Shown here: positions 1-19,192 of the stretch, one piece after another | How positions within the stretch are numbered: position 1 is the first letter of the stretch | How the letters are laid out: every line of letters begins with the position of its first letter | IMG/VR virus record: IMGVR_UViG_3300031857_016292 | Span: 1-21,116 of that record | Strand: one strand, 5' to 3' | Length of the DNA: 21,116 bases | Origin: a virus | Notes under the pieces: generated by a model | What the model was told of the DNA's origin: nothing | Seen by the model: the letters and a program-made list of their open reading frames with translations, nothing else | Databases searched by the model: none | Program-made: the position numbers and the translations under genes

Positions 1-798
1 CAAGGTAATGACGGGGAACCAACTCACGATAGCGTACAAATAGACCAAATCGCAAACTCAATCAATCTACTTAAAACAGACCCAGACTCAAGACGTAATA
101 GAGTTAATGCTTGGAATGTAGGTGAGATAGACCAAATGGTACTTCCACCTTGTCATACAGATTTTCAATTTTATACAAGAGAGTTGGGTATAATTGAAAG
201 AATAAAATTAGCAGAACAAACAACCGATATTATACCAGGGTTTGATAGCCACTTTGATTCGGATGAAGATGTTCATAAAGTTTTAGATACTTGGAACATT
301 CCAACCAGAGCAATCTCATTGATGTGGAATCAACGCAGCGTAGATACATTCCTAGGTTTACCATTTAACATTGCTTCTTACGGATTGCTGCTTGAAATCA
401 TTGCTAAAGCAGTTAATATGGTTCCTGATGAGTTAATTGGTAACTTGGGTGACGTACACTTATACAGTAACCATGTTGAACAGGCAAAAGAACAGATTGG
501 TAGAGAATTAACTCACAGAGAAAGAATAGAAAAATTATTCGAAACAAATAAAGATGCAAAATCATTATTATCACAAGAAGAACCAGAGGTTATTAGTTCA
601 TTACTTTTAGATGAATTAAAAATTCCAACCAGAACAAGAGAACCGTACCCATTACCAACACTAAAACATCTGAGAAGTGATGAGAAATATAGACTGTTAC
701 CTGAATTTCCATCACTATGGGGAGAATTCAAAATAACAGATTTTGAATTAGAAAACTATCAATCACATCCGACTATTAAGGCAAAACTCTCCAATTAA
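1..798 (+). CDS. thyA: Thymidylate synthase, C-terminal part (5' end outside window)
   Basis: Methylates dUMP to dTMP using methylene-tetrahydrofolate. The frame is open from the first base, and the upstream part before the ATG at 136 already reads as ThyA (DSRRNRVNAWNVGEID), so the gene enters from the left. Visible motifs are the phosphate-binding RR pair, the catalytic cysteine in PPCH (codon 151-153), NQRSVDTFLG, the FNIASY substrate loop and GDVHLYSNH. Compared with the usual family, about 35 extra residues lie between the PPCH...QFY strand and the QRS motif, and another insertion follows SNHVEQ before the end. The stop is directly followed by the ATG of the next gene, making it the first visible member of a tight operon. 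Phage ThyA enzymes usually serve to raise the dTTP pool during replication. Confidence 0.95.
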   Translation, partial: QGNDGEPTHDSVQIDQIANSINLLKTDPDSRRNRVNAWNVGEIDQMVLPPCHTDFQFYTRELGIIERIKLAEQTTDIIPGFDSHFDSDEDVHKVLDTWNIPTRAISLMWNQRSVDTFLGLPFNIASYGLLLEIIAKAVNMVPDELIGNLGDVHLYSNHVEQAKEQIGRELTHRERIEKLFETNKDAKSLLSQEEPEVISSLLLDELKIPTRTREPYPLPTLKHLRSDEKYRLLPEFPSLWGEFKITDFELENYQSHPTIKAKLSN

Positions 799-3216: not shown

Positions 3217-3651
3217 ATGGAACTTATAACAACATACATTTGTAAGAAAGGAGATATTGGTGTGCATGATAATATGTTTGGGGGTTTATTACTCGGACTT
3301 ATTGATGATGCCGCGGCATCATATGCGTCTCAAATTTGTGATACACAAAAAATAGTAACACTTAAAATTGATGAATTAGTTTTTAAAAAACCAGTTAAGG
3401 TTGGTAGTATTTTAAAAGTATATGGTGATGTGGTATCATTTGGTAATACGTCAGTAACACTTTATATTGAAGTTAGGAAACATAATGTATATACCGGTGA
3501 CCAAGAGATTGTCACTCACACTAAAATGGTTTTTGTTAGAATTGATGAGGATGGTAAACCAAGACCTATACACCAACACGTTAAAGAAAGGTTTAAGGAA
3601 AGAAAAGAAAAATTTGGTAGGGGTCTTTTGTCTCCCGAAGAAAAAAAATAA
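3217..3651 (+). CDS. Hotdog-fold acyl-CoA thioesterase-like protein
   Basis: 144 residues matching the YciA/BFIT-type hotdog thioesterases. They hydrolyse acyl-CoA thioesters to free acid and CoA. Signature parts are HDNMFGGLLLGLIDDAAASYA (residues 17-37, the central hotdog helix with the usual Asn and Asp residues), then VTLKIDELVFKKPVKVGSILKVYGDVVSFGNTSVTLYIEV and a final strand HTKMVFVRIDEDGKPRPI. Only one hotdog domain is present, so the active form is probably a dimer or hexamer. It is the last gene of the thyA operon. A CoA-thioester hydrolase is an unusual phage cargo; substrate unknown. Confidence 0.85.
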   Translation: MELITTYICKKGDIGVHDNMFGGLLLGLIDDAAASYASQICDTQKIVTLKIDELVFKKPVKVGSILKVYGDVVSFGNTSVTLYIEVRKHNVYTGDQEIVTHTKMVFVRIDEDGKPRPIHQHVKERFKERKEKFGRGLLSPEEKK

Positions 3652-4517: not shown

Positions 4518-5306
4518 TTAGGCAATATTAAAGTTGTCCATTTTATCAAATGCGTTCTCTCTGGCTCTTTGTGAGTTAGACCCTGAAGTTAAATCCGCAA
4601 AATATTCTACAGATTTCTTTTTATCATTAAATTTTGGGAGTGAGTTTGCGGATTTTCCTTTTGTGTAATATAAAATAGCCGCTTTAGCCGCAACTCTAGG
4701 GTCCTCAAGTAAAGATGGGTTTGAAATTAAATCAAGTCCTGTAAGTCTGCTAATTTTTTCATAGTTAGCTCTTCCAGTAATTTGATTAAATCCTCTACCA
4801 ATAAATTTGGCACCATCACCAGTCTGATTATTACCTAAACTAACTCCTGAATTTTTACCGTAAACGCACTCAAAAAATTTTGAGTCGTCACACTTCAAGG
4901 ACTTACATCTATTACCTCGTTTATTTCCAAATACATTAATAATTCTGTTGTCAGGAGTACTACAATAACTTTTTTCTTTGAAGGAATTAAAGCTACTTTC
5001 TTTAGCTGCGACACTCAAAATACCTATTTGATGTAATGGGTCAGTAATACCCATTTTATTCATTTCATCAATAAAAATATTTATGTTATTGAGTTTATCA
5101 CCACTATACCCTGTTATTTTTACTTTACCGTCAATGGATGAGATTGATTCTTTGTCCTCAGGTTTTTTACCGTCTTCTTTCTTTTTAGAAAATATGTTTT
5201 TCAAAAGAGATTCTATTCCGGCTCTGAGATAATCTTGTTCGGATAAATTATATAGTTTTTTAATTTCTTTTTGTTCTTCTTCTGAAATTATTAATTTTCT
5301 ACTCAT
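4518..5306 (-). CDS. GH19-type muralidase (endolysin or virion lysin)
   Basis: 262 residues. The GH19 (chitinase/lysozyme-like) domain covers roughly residues 70-260. Glu103 in AAKESSF and Glu111 in FKEKSY fit the two catalytic acids, and GDGAKFIGRGFNQITGRANY (163-182) is the classic GH19 substrate-cleft motif. The enzyme should cut peptidoglycan glycan strands. The start is ATG at 5306; a GTG lies just upstream. The N-terminus MSRKLIISEEEQKEIKKLYNL matches the short tag seen in five other proteins here, followed by a Lys/Glu-rich linker to about residue 55. No signal peptide is seen. The tag suggests a virion-packaged enzyme rather than a simple free endolysin; this is inference. A late-type promoter lies directly upstream. 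Confidence 0.9.
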   Translation of the reverse strand: MSRKLIISEEEQKEIKKLYNLSEQDYLRAGIESLLKNIFSKKKEDGKKPEDKESISSIDGKVKITGYSGDKLNNINIFIDEMNKMGITDPLHQIGILSVAAKESSFNSFKEKSYCSTPDNRIINVFGNKRGNRCKSLKCDDSKFFECVYGKNSGVSLGNNQTGDGAKFIGRGFNQITGRANYEKISRLTGLDLISNPSLLEDPRVAAKAAILYYTKGKSANSLPKFNDKKKSVEYFADLTSGSNSQRARENAFDKMDNFNIA

Positions 5307-5319
5307 CACTATCTTTTAG

Positions 5320-5746: not shown

Positions 5747-6172
5747 TTAGTTAACACTAACCACTTCCAAATCAAAAATCAATTTTTTACCAGCCAATGG
5801 GTGATTCGCGTCTACTTTAACAGTTGACTCACCAACTTCAACTACAGTAACATTAATTGGACCCATAGGACCCATCCCTTGTAACATCTGACCAACTTCA
5901 ATACCTTCAGGTACTTGAGTTTTGTTAACTTCAGTAACTAACATTTCATTAATTTCACCGTACGCGTCAGACGGTTCAATTTCGATTGTTTTCTTTTCTC
6001 CTTCAGTCATATCAACTAAACCATTTTCAAAACCCTTAATTAGTTGACCTTGTCCTAAAGTAACATTTAGAGGTTCACGACCTTCATTTAGAGAAGAATC
6101 AAAAATAGTTCCGTCTTCTAGTTTACCAGTGTAGTGGACAACAACAGTGTCCGAATTTGTAATTTTTTTCAT
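5747..6172 (-). CDS. slyD: FKBP-type peptidyl-prolyl isomerase, SlyD-like
   Basis: 141 residues, close to a minimal SlyD. Motifs: DTVVVHYTGKLEDGTIFDSS (FKBP strand and active-site Asp), LGQGQLIKGFENGLVDMTEGEKK, then EPSDAYGE, an insert-in-flap region of about 60 residues and ANHPLAGKKLIFDLEV. It catalyses cis-trans isomerisation of prolyl bonds and acts as a folding helper. The metal-binding His-rich tail of E. coli SlyD is absent, and so is the Cys/His cluster in the flap; GMGPMGPIN stands in its place. With dnaK in the same window it suggests that the phage carries its own folding aids. The start ATG lies after a T-rich leader with no Shine-Dalgarno. Confidence 0.93.
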   Translation of the reverse strand: MKKITNSDTVVVHYTGKLEDGTIFDSSLNEGREPLNVTLGQGQLIKGFENGLVDMTEGEKKTIEIEPSDAYGEINEMLVTEVNKTQVPEGIEVGQMLQGMGPMGPINVTVVEVGESTVKVDANHPLAGKKLIFDLEVVSVN

Positions 6173-7824: not shown

Positions 7825-8346
7825 ATGGAATGGTATATTGTTAGAGCTCAGGCAAATAGAGAAAGAAAAGTTTCTGAGCGAATTATTAAAGAGGGTGAGA
7901 AAGGAGAATTAACAGGTGTAATAGGTAGAGTTGTTGTACCCACTGAAAAAGTATTTTTAACTAAAGATGGTAAAAAAACACAGAGAGAAAAAGTTTTATT
8001 TCCTGGTTACGTTTTTGTTGAGACATCCGCGATTGGTGAATTGAAACAAGTTGTTAAAAAAATACAGGGTGCGACAGGTTTACTGTCTGATAGAGCTGGA
8101 AATATACAAGTGGTTCCTGAAGCTGAAGTCAACCGAATGATAGGTATTCATGAAGAAAATAAAACTAAATCTTTTAGCGATATCTACAGTATTGGTGATG
8201 AAGTAATCATAACTGACGGACCTTTTACATCATTCAAAGGAAATATTGAAAATATTGATAAAGAAAAGGGTAAAGTTAAAGTAAATGTCCTTATCTTTGG
8301 CAGACCAACAATAGTTGAATTAGAAGATACACAAGTAAAAAAATGA
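7825..8346 (+). CDS. nusG: Transcription elongation/antitermination factor NusG
   Basis: 173 residues, full length. The NGN domain runs from EWYIVRAQANRERKVSERI to about residue 110 and includes LFPGYVFVE (58-66), the strand that contacts the RNA polymerase clamp. The KOW domain covers about 121-172 (IGDEVIITDGPFTSFKGNIENI, then FGRPTIVELEDTQV). Spacing and motifs resemble Bacteroidota NusG, so host origin is likely. Phage NusG copies may act as processivity or antitermination factors on host polymerase, or compete with host NusG; which applies cannot be read here. The stop overlaps the next start as ATGA. Confidence 0.95.
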   Translation: MEWYIVRAQANRERKVSERIIKEGEKGELTGVIGRVVVPTEKVFLTKDGKKTQREKVLFPGYVFVETSAIGELKQVVKKIQGATGLLSDRAGNIQVVPEAEVNRMIGIHEENKTKSFSDIYSIGDEVIITDGPFTSFKGNIENIDKEKGKVKVNVLIFGRPTIVELEDTQVKK

Positions 8347-9038
8347 AAATAACATTTATTTCAGACACTCACAATAAACACAAATCAATAACAGGTGATT
8401 TACTTGGTGGTGATTTGTTAATTCATGCTGGAGACATCTCAAGTATGGGATATAAGCATGAAATCCAAGAATTTTGCAAATGGTTTAATTCATTGGATAA
8501 CTATGATACCAAAGTATTCATTGCTGGTAACCATGATTGGGGGTTTCAAGACAGTCCAAAACAAAGTAAAGAAATTATTGATTCTTATAAACGGATTGAC
8601 TATCTCCAAGACGAAGAGTTAGGATTTCAAATCGGAGAAGGTCCTATGGTTAAAATTTACGGTAGTCCATGGCAACCTGAATTTTATAATTGGGCATTTA
8701 ACCTACCAAGAAATGGTTGGGAACTTGAGCAAAAATGGAATGACATTCCTGAAGATACTGACATCTTAATAACTCATGGTCCGGCTCAAGGATATGTTGA
8801 CACATCAGGACCACCTTGGAATGAACCTTTGCTAGGTTGTGAATTGTTGATTGAAAGAATCAAAAAAATTAAACCTAAGATTCATGTTTGTGGACACATT
8901 CACGGTGGATATGGTTATATGTTTAATGGGGATACTCACTTCATAAACGCTTCAGCATTAAATGAAAAGTATGACTATGTTAACAAACCATTAACGGTAG
9001 AATGGGACCCTATGACAAATAAACTTGATTTTTTATAA
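8343..9038 (+). CDS. Metallophosphoesterase (calcineurin-like)
   Basis: 231 residues with all metal-site motifs in order: SDTH (Asp8, His10), HAGD (Asp31), GNHD (Asn63, His64), THGP (His145) and GHIH (His185, His187). The layout, including SPWQPEFYNWAFN between motifs, is that of the MPPED/UPF0046-type metallophosphoesterases that act on phosphodiesters. The substrate cannot be told from sequence; cyclic nucleotides or RNA ends are possible. It overlaps nusG by four bases and is followed directly by a terminator, so nusG and this gene form a coupled pair. Confidence 0.93.
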   Translation: MKITFISDTHNKHKSITGDLLGGDLLIHAGDISSMGYKHEIQEFCKWFNSLDNYDTKVFIAGNHDWGFQDSPKQSKEIIDSYKRIDYLQDEELGFQIGEGPMVKIYGSPWQPEFYNWAFNLPRNGWELEQKWNDIPEDTDILITHGPAQGYVDTSGPPWNEPLLGCELLIERIKKIKPKIHVCGHIHGGYGYMFNGDTHFINASALNEKYDYVNKPLTVEWDPMTNKLDFL

Positions 9039-9151: not shown

Positions 9152-11023
9152 ATGGGTAAAATTATAGGTATTGATTTAGGAACAACAAATTCTTGCGTAG
9201 CAGTAATGGAAAACGGAGAACCTGTTGTGATTACAAACAGTGAAGGAAAAAGAACCACCCCTTCTATTGTTGGATTTTCAAATGGTGGAGAAAGAAAGAT
9301 TGGTGACCCGGCAAAAAGACAATCGGTGACTAATCCTGATAAAACCGTTTATTCTATTAAACGTTTTATGGGAGCTAGTTTTGACGAAACAAAAAATGAA
9401 TCAAAAAGAGTTCCTTATAAAGTGGTTAAAGGAGACGGTAATACCCCAAGAGTTGAGATTGACAATAGAAAATACTCACCTCAGGAAATTTCCGCAATGG
9501 TTTTACAGAAAATGAAACAAACCGCTGAGGATTATCTTGGACAAGAAGTCACTGAAGCGGTAATTACAGTTCCTGCATATTTTAATGATGCTCAGAGACA
9601 GGCAACAAAAGAAGCTGGTGAAATTGCGGGTTTAACAGTTCGTCGTATTATAAATGAACCAACCGCGGCGGCATTGGCTTATGGTCTTGATAAACAATCT
9701 AAAGACATGAAGATTGTGGTATTTGACTGTGGTGGTGGAACACACGATGTTTCAGTACTAGAGTTGGGAGATGGTGTCTTTGAAGTATTATCTACTGATG
9801 GTGATACTCATTTGGGTGGTGATGATTTTGACCAATCAATTATTGATTGGTTAGTTAAAGAATTTAAAGACGAGAACGGACTTGATTTGTCTAAAGACCC
9901 TATGGCGTTACAAAGACTTCGTGAAGGTGCTGAAAAGGCGAAAATAGAACTATCGTCATCACCATCGACTGAAATTAATCTTCCTTACATTATGCCGGTT
10001 GACGGAGTTCCAAAACACTTGGTTAGAACGCTAACAAAGGCTAAATTTGAACAGTTGGTTGATAACCTAATCCAAAGAACCATTAAACCTTGTGAATCGG
10101 CATTGAAAAATGCGGGATTGAAACCCTCAGACATCAATGAAATTATTTTAGTTGGTGGGTCAACTCGTATTCCGGCAGTTCAAGAGGCGGTTAAAAAATT
10201 CTTCGGAAAAGAACCGTCAAAAGGAGTTAACCCCGATGAAGTTGTTGCCTTAGGAGCGGCAATACAAGGAGGAGTGTTAGCAGGTGATTCAACGGTTAAA
10301 GATGTACTTCTATTGGATGTTACACCATTGTCATTAGGTATTGAGACTATGGGTGGAGTCTTTACCAAATTGATTGAATCAAACACAACCATCCCAACCA
10401 AAAAATCACAGGTATTCTCAACAGCGGCTGATAATCAACCGTCAGTTGAAATACACGTATTACAGGGGGAAAGACCAATGGCAAAAGACAACAGAACCAT
10501 AGGTCGTTTTCACCTTGACGGAATCCCACCATCAATGAGAGGGGTCCCGCAAATTGAAGTTACTTTTGACATTGATGCGAATGGTATTATCAATGTGTCA
10601 GCATTAGATAAGGCAACTAATAAACAACAATCAATTCGTATTGAATCCTCTTCTGGATTATCAAAAGAAGAAATTGAACGTATGAAAAAAGACGCTGAAT
10701 TAAATGCAGAACAAGACAGAAAGGTAAAAGAAGAAGCTGATGTTATTAACCAAGCAGATTCTATGATTTTCCAAACTGAAAAATCAATGAAAGACTTGGA
10801 AGACAAACTAACTGAGGACGATAAAAATGAAATCACGACAGCTCTTGATTCACTAAAAGAATCACACAAATCAAAAGATGTTGAAAAAATCAAATCGTCA
10901 ATGGATAAAGTTAACGAGACTTTCCAAAAAATAACTCAAAATTTGTATAATCAAACCACGGAAAATGGTGGACAGGATTATGAAGTTTCCGATGTTGATT
11001 TTGAAGAGGTAAAACAAAATTAA
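9152..11023 (+). CDS. dnaK: Molecular chaperone DnaK (Hsp70)
   Basis: 623 residues, full length. ATPase domain motifs are [47 protein letters not shown] (191-201), [10 protein letters not shown]. The interdomain linker is [13 protein letters not shown] (384-396). The substrate-binding domain includes [19 protein letters not shown], and a full helical lid ends in [14 protein letters not shown], which keeps the bacterial DnaK tail. Wording such as [23 protein letters not shown] and [11 protein letters not shown] is typical of Bacteroidota DnaK, so it was probably taken from a host. Cys193 replaces the usual Leu in DLGGGT; the catalytic Thr is kept. It stands as its own unit between two terminators, without dnaJ or grpE beside it. 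Confidence 0.98.
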
Positions 11024-14713: not shown

Positions 14714-15724
14714 TTATTTATCAAATCTTTTTAAGGCATTTTCCGTTATAAAAACGTATTCTGATTCTTTAAATGATTCTAAATTCATAGAATTAGTGTA
14801 AGACATTGCTGATTTCAGGTAATCCTTAAAATTACTAATCCATTGGTCTAATCGGTACTCAACTTTATTTACTTTATGAATTCCCTCTGATGTTTTTAGT
14901 TTAGATTTACCCCACTTTTTTTGAACTGCTTTAGTACTCATACCTCTAAATTCTTTATAAAAATGTTTTCTCATTTTTGGGAACTTTTCCCAAATCTTTA
15001 TACCTAATTCGTGTGATATTTTAATCCGATTAAATAACTTAATATCAGAACAAGATTCTAAAGTTTTATTAAGTAATCCTCCTAGCATAACATAATCAGC
15101 ACCTAAAGCTAATGCTTTGATTATTTCATCATAATTTCTAAAACCACCATCGGCAACTATCTTTGTTGTGTATTCATTATTTTTCTTAATATTATAACAC
15201 TCACTAATTAAAGACGCCATAGGAAAATGTACACCTGTATTTGCTGATGTTAAACATCCACTACCACCACCAATACCGACTCTAATATACCCAACACCAA
15301 TTTTAGCAAATTTATTATAAGTTTTCGGGTTAGCAATATTACCGACCATAACCTTACTTAAATCGTTGTTCTTTGAAAATTCTACGCATAAATCATATAA
15401 TGATTTCATGTGACCATTAGCGATGTCAATTAATAAAAAACCACTTGCTTTAACTCTGAGAGAAACTATTGTCTCAAAATCCTCTAATGATATAGATTGG
15501 AACACGTATTGGTTGTTGGAATTAACTCCTCTTGGAGCACATGTGAATAAATTTCCTTCATTAAATAAATTAATATTTGAAGAATCCACAACAGTATCCA
15601 TTGGGGAAACCATTATGGGTAAAAATCCATATTCATTATAAACACTAATTTCACTTCGTGACCGAATAGATGATAAGGTTTCAGGAATTAAAGTGATATC
15701 TTTAAAATCAAATTTTTTGTTCAT
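14714..15724 (-). CDS. IMP dehydrogenase / GMP reductase family enzyme
   Basis: 336 residues, about the length of GMP reductase, and without CBS domains. Motifs of the TIM barrel: PIMVSPMDTV (36-45), DIANGHMKS (100-108), VGNIANPKTYNKFAKIGVGYIRVGIGGGSGC with the probable catalytic Cys157, KIVADGGFRNYDEIIKALALGADYVMLGGLL (188-218) and EFRGMS (258-263). After the Cys the sequence is LTSANTG rather than the more usual TTRxxTG. It should act on purine monophosphates (IMP to XMP, or GMP to IMP); I cannot decide which. It stands alone on the - strand, probably from a promoter in 15725-15775, and could shift the purine pool toward phage DNA or a modified base. Confidence 0.9.
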   Translation of the reverse strand: MNKKFDFKDITLIPETLSSIRSRSEISVYNEYGFLPIMVSPMDTVVDSSNINLFNEGNLFTCAPRGVNSNNQYVFQSISLEDFETIVSLRVKASGFLLIDIANGHMKSLYDLCVEFSKNNDLSKVMVGNIANPKTYNKFAKIGVGYIRVGIGGGSGCLTSANTGVHFPMASLISECYNIKKNNEYTTKIVADGGFRNYDEIIKALALGADYVMLGGLLNKTLESCSDIKLFNRIKISHELGIKIWEKFPKMRKHFYKEFRGMSTKAVQKKWGKSKLKTSEGIHKVNKVEYRLDQWISNFKDYLKSAMSYTNSMNLESFKESEYVFITENALKRFDK

Positions 15725-15774
15725 ATAGTTTGTTTATAACCTAATAATAGTTAAAAACTTAAACAAGGTCAAAG

Positions 15775-15786
15775 TATATTTATTAA
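15775..15786 (+). promoter_or_regulatory. Late-type promoter motif TATATTTATTAA
   Basis: TATATTTATTAA ends two bases before the ATG at 15788, closer than any other site of this type; the transcript would be nearly leaderless. Confidence 0.5.
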
Positions 15787-15787
15787 T

Positions 15788-18352: not shown

Positions 18353-18629
18353 ATTCGTATCCTGAATCAGTTTTAATTGGGGTTAAAGGTAAATCCAAAA
18401 ATACAGGACTCTGCTCTCCAAAATAACCACCAATTATATTATAATCATAGTATTCTTCGGCTTCAGAATAAACCATACCATCCCGTTCCATTAGGATATC
18501 TAATATCTTACTTTTTGAATACAGAATTCTATTCCCGTTACCAAATTCCTCAACAATGCCGATAATTGCATCTTCTAAACCATCCAATAATATAGAACCC
18601 TCGGCGTATGTATCTAAATCAACTTTCAT
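18327..18629 (-). CDS. Conserved small acidic protein
   Basis: 100 residues, acidic. Characteristic stretches are LLDGLEDAIIGIVEEFGNGNRILYSKSKILDILMERDGMVYSEAEEYYDYNIIGGYFGEQSPVF. I recall the DG(L/M)EDAIIG...Y...EYF-FNI-GA-(V)GE-TP-F pattern from hypothetical proteins in bacteria, plasmids and phages. No function is known to me. It overlaps the upstream epimerase gene by four bases (ATGA), so the two are one unit. Confidence 0.75.
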   Translation of the reverse strand: MKVDLDTYAEGSILLDGLEDAIIGIVEEFGNGNRILYSKSKILDILMERDGMVYSEAEEYYDYNIIGGYFGEQSPVFLDLPLTPIKTDSGYEFTTDVYIE

Positions 18630-19132
18630 TTTTTTAAGCTTTTAATATATTCATCAAAATCCAAAGATTGATTGTCTTTTTGATTTATAGTTAATCTATT
18701 GTCACCTAAATAATCCTCAACAACCTTTGACACTTCCTTGTGACTACCCCAAAAAATACTTTTTTCGTGTTCTACTGAATATATTTCGTCCACAAAATAA
18801 TTTATGACCGTATTTTTTTTAAGGGTTAAAAACCCGTGAGCAAAACCTTTAGGAACATATAGACTATCTCCTTCTTCCATTTCATAGTAATAAACCTTAC
18901 CCAATTCATCTCCCACCAAACCAACGATAATATCAACAATTTTACCTTTTAACACTGTAATTTGTTTTGATTGTCTTTTCGGAGCTTCTTGTAAATGAAG
19001 ACCTCTTAATGTGTAGATGTTATCATTAAAACTTATGTTACTTTGAATCCAATCTTCTTTAATTGGTATTGGAATAAAAGAACCTCTATTATCATAAAAA
19101 ATAGGTTGTTTTGATATCTTAGGACTTTCCAT
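18626..19132 (-). CDS. rfbC: dTDP-4-dehydrorhamnose 3,5-epimerase-like (RmlC family)
   Basis: 168 residues from ATG 19132; the frame is open further upstream, but that part is AT-rich leader. RmlC landmarks are NRGSF (15-19), LRGLHLQ with catalytic His46, PKRQSKQ, KGKIVDIIV, LYVPKGFAHGF (91-101), Tyr112 in INYFVDE and Asp153 in NQKDN, which fit the His/Tyr/Asp catalytic set of the Salmonella enzyme. It would epimerise dTDP-4-keto-6-deoxyglucose. No rmlA, B or D copies are nearby, so it must use host substrate or a related sugar. A phage might use it for surface polysaccharide change. A weaker late-like motif (TATATTTTTATT, 19133-19144) abuts the start. Confidence 0.88.
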   Translation of the reverse strand: MESPKISKQPIFYDNRGSFIPIPIKEDWIQSNISFNDNIYTLRGLHLQEAPKRQSKQITVLKGKIVDIIVGLVGDELGKVYYYEMEEGDSLYVPKGFAHGFLTLKKNTVINYFVDEIYSVEHEKSIFWGSHKEVSKVVEDYLGDNRLTINQKDNQSLDFDEYIKSLKK

Positions 19133-19167
19133 AATAAAAATATATAAAATAACTTCTAACCAATCAA

Positions 19168-19181
19168 CATATTTATAATAA
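19168..19181 (+). promoter_or_regulatory. Late-type promoter motif CATATTTATAATAA
   Basis: CATATTTATAATAA ends 11 bases before the ATG at 19193; nearly identical to the sites at 5328 and 20970. Confidence 0.55.
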
Positions 19182-19192
19182 AAAAACAAAAT

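Follow-up and report, generated by a model that had tools for sequence, protein, structure and literature searches.

A divergent, CBS-free enzyme of large low-GC phages, most likely a GMP reductase, and its possible place in a guanine-to-adenine route

Introduction

The closest described systems to the enzyme reported here are GMP reductase (GuaC) and IMP dehydrogenase (GuaB). In GMP reductases the Cys, Thr and Glu of the active site are kept, the Arg418-Tyr419 dyad is absent and the flap is truncated (PMC2525682, in the part of the text available). CBS domains are absent from GMP reductases except the trypanosomatid ones (PMC7160140). A phage GMP reductase has itself already been published (PMC7029224, excerpt), and the available text of the paper on huge phages mentions purine genes in general terms only (PMC7162821). 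During infection of S. aureus, phage K raises the transcripts of host purA and guaC (PMC9241854, excerpt). Among the listings and abstract openings of a mostly open-access literature, we found no paper on a phage-encoded pair of GMP reductase and PurA.

Here we describe a purine enzyme gene of the window, that is, an entire virus record of 21,116 bases, which is a 21-kb fragment of a phage genome. Its product appears, from its sequence, most likely to convert GMP to IMP, which would give a large low-GC phage its own means of letting guanine nucleotides become adenine nucleotides.

Results

The original prediction had placed an IMPDH/GMPR enzyme without CBS domains at positions 14714-15724. The coordinates are exact, and the strand, which had been left unstated, is the minus strand, whose translation gives 336 amino acids and a stop; the plus strand is stop-riddled there and non-coding (Table 1). 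The enzyme class was confirmed as well, since a Pfam search of the 336 residues returned a single PF00478 domain (128.6 bits, E 3.5e-37, cut-off 25.6), which places the protein in the superfamily, and no CBS domain; besides PF00478, only weak barrel relatives were matched. The best phage family was phrog_9582, 'dehydrogenase' (174 bits, PHROGs). Compared with 15 relatives by the Nei-Gojobori count, the gene had dN/dS values of 0.10 to 0.23, at dS values of 1.2-2.3 that are near saturation; it is maintained under purifying selection. Because of these E-values and dN/dS ratios the match is not due to chance, and the gene is a genuine one; the kind of enzyme is known, but the branch to which it belongs is divergent and uncharacterised. 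Putative promoter hexamers were read by eye in the upstream sequences.

Table 1. Features of the window, in order of position
Feature	Position	Strand	Evidence or remark
thyA (thymidylate synthase), 5' end lost at window edge	1..798	plus	PF00303, 161 bits
4HBT thioesterase	3217-3651		host-like gene
GH19-like lysin	4518-5309		host-like gene
FKBP isomerase	5747-6172		host-like gene
NusG-type antiterminator	7825-8346		host-like gene
Metallophosphoesterase	8343..9038	plus	53% identical relative adjoins DHFR and a PurA-like gene in phage G002
Hsp70/DnaK, full-length	9152-11023		host-like gene
GMP-reductase-type gene (PF00478), 336 aa, ATG to stop	14714..15724	minus	ORF, Pfam, PHROGs, AlphaFold2
Glu280 codon, third triad residue	14885..14887	minus	invariant, 54/54
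Truncated flap lacking an Arg-Tyr pair, residues 263-279	14888..14938	minus	alignment
Active-site loop, residues 150-168 (GIGGGSGCLTSANTGVHFP)	15221..15277	minus	motif reading, family alignment
Thr159 codon	15248..15250	minus	Thr 52/54, Ser 2/54
Catalytic Cys157 codon	15254..15256	minus	invariant, 54/54 aligned
Divergent upstream spacer, 63 bases	15725..15787	minus	putative TTGACC and TATTAT hexamers, by eye; L004 similar
dTDP-sugar isomerase	18626-19189		host-like gene

We aligned 54 members of the family. Cys157, Asp192, Gly261-Met262 and Glu280 are invariant, and the Cys, Thr and Glu of GMP reductase, whose roles are given in PMC2525682, are found in 54/54, 52/54 and 54/54 members, respectively. 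It had been predicted that the catalytic Cys157 is intact and that the loop after it is unusual, and both statements hold: the residue sits in a GIGGGSGC motif, and the following CLTSANTG departs from the canonical CxTR/K at Cys+3 throughout the family (54/54). This position is S in 32 members, T in 16, A in five and N in one, and Arg, Lys or Gln occurs there in none of the 54; in the canonical rows it is Arg or Lys in six GuaC and Arg or Gln in five GuaB sequences. Residue 166 is His in 39/54 members, where canonical enzymes have Gly. The flap, counted between Met262 and Glu280, comprises 17 residues in 52/54 members, and a [RK][YF] pair was seen in none of the 54. Its length is 19 residues in the GuaC proteins of Salmonella and XacN1 and 24, with Arg-Tyr-Phe, in Listeria GuaB. 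The family combines the triad with a truncated, dyad-free flap; in the window enzyme the two marks of IMP dehydrogenase, an Arg-Tyr dyad on a long flap and a CBS (Bateman) domain, are both missing. CBS-less forms of IMPDH exist, so that the absence of the domain is by itself a weak criterion. The label GMPR-like is given because of the Cys-Thr-Glu triad and the short flap without the Arg-Tyr dyad; as these are hallmarks of GMPR, GMP to IMP is the likeliest reaction, rather than IMP to XMP. We conclude that, within the IMPDH/GMPR superfamily, the protein represents a divergent phage type free of CBS domains and, as judged from its residues, most likely works as a GMP reductase.

In NCBIfam, no GMPR or IMPDH equivalog cut-off was reached by the window enzyme, and its GMP-reductase membership is therefore provisional. 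The IMP dehydrogenase model TIGR01302 scored highest (105.3 bits, cut-off 481.5), narrowly ahead of the GMPR models NF003966 (104.1 bits, cut-off 344) and NF003470 (98.6 bits, cut-off 397). The protein could accordingly be an IMP dehydrogenase that raises guanine nucleotides by converting IMP to XMP, with water activated by the Thr-Glu pair instead of Arg-Tyr; Thr321-Glu431 is able to activate water in IMPDH (PMC2525682, excerpt), and the best solved structures by both sequence and fold carry IMPDH labels. When the family profile was compared with the PDB by sequence, 3r2g (named IMPDH) came first, but GMPR entries made up three of the four next best matches (GMPR2, GMPR2 and GMPR1 directly after 3r2g). 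Moreover, the flap is shorter than in both the canonical GuaC and the canonical GuaB references and lacks the Arg-Tyr pair in all 54 members, and in IMPDH the replacement of Arg418 lowers hydrolysis ~1000-fold (PMC2525682, excerpt). We consider an IMP dehydrogenase unlikely.

The AlphaFold2 model had a mean pLDDT of 90.6, the weakest block being residues 151-160, the Cys loop, at 60, and it matched IMPDH/GMPR chains across residues 1-336. The top VIA and Foldseek structure rows were IMPDHs; T. brucei GMPR (6jig; Z 33.9, rmsd 2.6, 310 aligned residues) was level with IMPDHs. Fold comparison was dropped as a discriminator between the two enzymes, both of which match equally.

Relatives of the enzyme were encoded at 68 loci of an IMG/VR scan (100% to about 32% identity), in 55 records of a phage collection and at 80 loci kept from a genome collection. 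The closest records of the phage collection were the huge phages LR756504 (636 kb, 49%), LR756500 (462 kb), LR745206 (635 kb) and LR756502 (642 kb), followed by the crAss-like phage cr108_1 (41%) and then the Lak phages (33-34%). In a maximum-likelihood tree (107 rows, quick mode) the window enzyme fell into a clade of 76 rows (SH-aLRT 99, stem 1.28), whose members come from huge phages of 400-640 kb, from Lak phages, from one crAss-like phage, from many IMG/VR contigs and from Bacteroidales chromosomes. This clade is separate from GuaB and from the canonical GuaC proteins of Salmonella, Listeria and the phages G, XacN1 and Cr30, and the enzyme thus lies outside the canonical GuaC clade. The root and the deep branch order are uncertain; as the GuaB outgroup never formed one side of a branch, we make no claim as to which canonical enzyme is nearer.

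The long stem (1.28 changes per column), a Cys+3 position that has lost its basic residue throughout the family (54/54) and the His at residue 166 in 39/54 members, where canonical enzymes have Gly, might also point to a new specificity of the altered Cys loop, for a different nucleotide such as dGMP or some other C2-aminated purine, or to a regulatory protein that turns nothing over. Both variants are opposed by the invariance of Cys157 and Glu280 of the triad and of Asp192. The Asp counterpart of Asp192 touches the ribose hydroxyls in IMPDH/GMPR and favours a ribonucleotide. A different substrate or a regulatory role is in our view improbable, and GMP reductase remains the preferred assignment.

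The Bacteroidales chromosomal copies are nested inside the phage-type clade, which suggests gene transfer between phage and host. At three such loci (L092, L095 and L109) the gene lies amid ordinary-looking cellular genes, mostly judged by eye.

Several other members of the scans had features of their own. The 400- and 410-kb contigs L097 (CADBGE010000001) and L115 (ONIZ01000001), from Bacillota MAGs, resemble huge phages or binned phages. In two Mycoplasmatota MAG contigs (L114, L117) the members, when translated with table 11, are cut short ahead of the Trp-containing flap; this would be expected of a candidate code in which TGA specifies Trp. In the huge phage LR756504 (L070 7197-8996) the frame stays open for ~260 codons before the GMPR start, and the extension looked by eye like a homing-endonuclease sequence.

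Three relatives carry inteins directly in front of the catalytic Cys, as would be expected in genes whose product is needed. At two loci (L058 6047-8534 and L065 7989-10598) the gene is in two parts, the N half with the start of the intein and the end of the intein with the C half. At least one endonuclease-like ORF, with weak DUF559-like matches, lies between the halves, and the C half starts with the catalytic Cys as the +1 residue. At a third locus (L120 692-2866) the same site is occupied by a contiguous intein within a 725-aa ORF, and LAGLIDADG was matched weakly. The IMPDH-1 split intein has been described in an IMPDH gene among 'fractured genes' (Dassa 2009, cited in the available part of PMC11766414). 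L058 and L065 resemble it in that an IMPDH/GMPR gene is cut in two around an endonuclease-like ORF, but differ in the +1 residue, which is Ser in IMPDH-1 (PMC11766414, excerpt) and the catalytic Cys here.

We then considered the company of the gene; the names of neighbouring families were assigned by eye, except for the dUTPase of L058 and the window phosphoesterase. Near the enzyme gene in 56 deduplicated loci were genes for dUTPase (seven), metallophosphoesterase (nine) and a NUDIX-like family (seven). In cr108_1, metallophosphoesterase and thyA are followed directly by the enzyme gene, with Pol I, dUTPase and a B12-dependent RNR nearby. For the wider gene content we searched 21 related records (14 IMG/VR contigs and seven named phages, phage G included), 16 of which contained ThyA. 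The combined control of purine and pyrimidine pools, which had been proposed from the presence of thyA, agrees with the gene content of the window, where thyA and the CBS-less IMPDH/GMPR enzyme are both present. The median GC was 0.298 for the family loci and 0.323 for the ThyA controls (Mann-Whitney p 8e-6, computed on sequences that are related to one another).

A PurA/PurZ homologue (PF00709) was present in 3/21 related records (or of 20 if phage G, whose enzyme is a canonical GuaC, is not counted), the divergent match in G010 being classed as PurA-type by NCBIfam scores alone, and in 0/26 further, mostly shorter contigs carrying the enzyme. In phage G002, whose GMPR is 61% identical to that of the window, a 343-aa PurA-like gene lies beside the DHFR and phosphoesterase genes, ~9 kb from the GMPR gene. 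The window contains the phosphoesterase relative (53%) and gave no convincing DHFR or PurA match; the other large contig of its own clade from the GMPR scan, G001 (203 kb), had no PF00709 match. A scan with the PurA-like protein of G002 kept 80 loci. Three contigs found in this way (G020, G025, G026) encode a GMPR 64 to 67% identical to that of the window, with ~12 to 17 kb separating its gene from the PurA-like one; having been found via PurA, they are no measure of how frequent the pairing is. In another phage group, at two loci (L226 5968-13072 and L239 35-3742), DNA polymerase III alpha, a PurA-like protein and dUTPase are followed by a second type of CBS-less IMPDH/GMPR enzyme, which has a short flap and on which NCBIfam is undecided between IMPDH and GMPR. 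With a median GC of 0.438, the phages that have this second, PurA-adjacent type are not rich in AT; low GC is therefore insufficient as the whole reason for the enzyme, and AT-richness was rejected as its sole cause.

Among PurA-like contigs of at least ~97 kb, 11/22 contained PF00478, compared with 4/24 controls chosen by ThyA (Fisher p 0.027); PurA was found in 1/24 of these controls, and PurA together with PF00478 in 0/24. As proof of pairing this co-occurrence was set aside: the contigs are related and may be incomplete, 8/11 carry a different enzyme type, and the rates for the window's own type (3/21 and 0/26) weaken it further. Phage PurB (PF00206) was detected in 0/21 related records, so that no complete phage-encoded route from GMP to AMP was seen and host PurB would be needed. 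Taken together, the pairing of the enzyme with a PurA-type synthetase in some relatives is suggestive of a phage GMP-to-adenylate route, the pairing not being general.

Phages with modified purines have dedicated purine enzymes (PMC8342488 and PMC12884076, excerpts), and the original prediction had recommended a search for a base-modification pathway. The PurA/PurZ homologues of some relatives could belong to such a pathway for 2-aminoadenine or 7-deazaguanine, with the window enzyme feeding or clearing precursors. The searches did not bear this out. A TGT (DpdA-like) match was found in 0/21 related records, which may be fragments and in which a divergent DpdA may escape the TGT model, and QueC exceeded its cut-off in 0/21, the lone row being G011 at 16.7 bits. 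The PurA-like protein of G002 scored 282 bits with the PurA model (cut-off 402) and 137.5 bits with the PurZ model (cut-off 300), both below. Published phage PurZ proteins carry Ser where PurA has its catalytic Asp13 in 147/147 cases (PMC12884076, excerpt), whereas the PurA-like family keeps the PurA aspartate in all 80 P-loop motifs (GDTGKGK 50, GDCGKGK 24, GDSGKGK 5, GDEGKGK 1), a set in which the query gene recurs and one full-length PurA is counted. Furthermore, a GMP reductase would be expected to deplete, not to supply, the dGMP of PurZ. With only PurA-type matches in the 21 related records, base modification by PurZ, DpdA or QueC is unsupported, and we regard a role of the enzyme in a modified-purine pathway as very improbable.

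Discussion

From the sequence, the predicted fold, the triad, the short flap, the selection on the gene and its company in relatives, we infer the reaction, its direction, the NAD(P)H cofactor and a purpose in the supply of A. In the GMP reductase reaction, Cys157 would attack C2 of GMP, ammonia would depart with the aid of Thr159 and Glu280, and the covalent intermediate would be reduced by NAD(P)H to IMP. IMP could then be converted to AMP via host PurB and an adenylosuccinate synthetase, which would be that of the host or, in some relatives, a PurA-type enzyme of the phage. Purine would be moved from G to A while the low-GC phage genome replicates, and T would be supplied by ThyA, in relatives also with dUTPase. 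The phage K data would fit a need for GMP-to-AMP flow, though the genes concerned are those of the host.

It is possible, and we propose it tentatively from the few relatives in which the route is read, that large phages have their own guanine-to-adenine conversion, which consists of a divergent GMPR and a short PurA-type synthetase placed with thyA, dUTPase, DHFR and a replicative polymerase. Guanine would be pushed towards adenine alongside the push of pyrimidines towards T, and the changes in the Cys loop would mark out a new functional class of GMPR, one that has also entered Bacteroidales chromosomes. If this is true, the 400-640 kb huge, Lak and crAss-like lineages have in common a purine-steering step for which 'dehydrogenase' is at present the sole label, and the balance of dATP and dGTP could be tested directly in phages whose base composition is unlike that of their host. 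An untested branch would be added to a well-studied superfamily of drug-target enzymes.

The best phage family, PHROG 9582, is given no function beyond the word 'dehydrogenase', and gp050 of cr108_1 is annotated by the same word. The window enzyme resembles GuaB (TIGR01302) in its barrel, its Cys loop and its Thr-Glu pair, but differs from it in lacking the CBS domain and the Arg-Tyr pair and in its flap of 17 residues compared with 24 in Listeria GuaB. The comparison set for GMP reductase comprised GuaC (NF003966, NF003470, TIGR01305/01306), human GMPR2 (2c6q), phage G gp120 and the enzymes of phages XacN1 and Cr30. Unlike GuaC, to whose Salmonella member it is ~25% identical, the window enzyme has lost the basic residue at Cys+3, has a flap two residues shorter and scores under the curated cut-offs, unlike phage G gp120 (658 compared with a cut-off of 465.65) and the XacN1 enzyme, which reaches that of NF003470. 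With GuaC it shares the barrel, the Cys-Thr-Glu triad, the lack of CBS domains and the short flap without Arg-Tyr.
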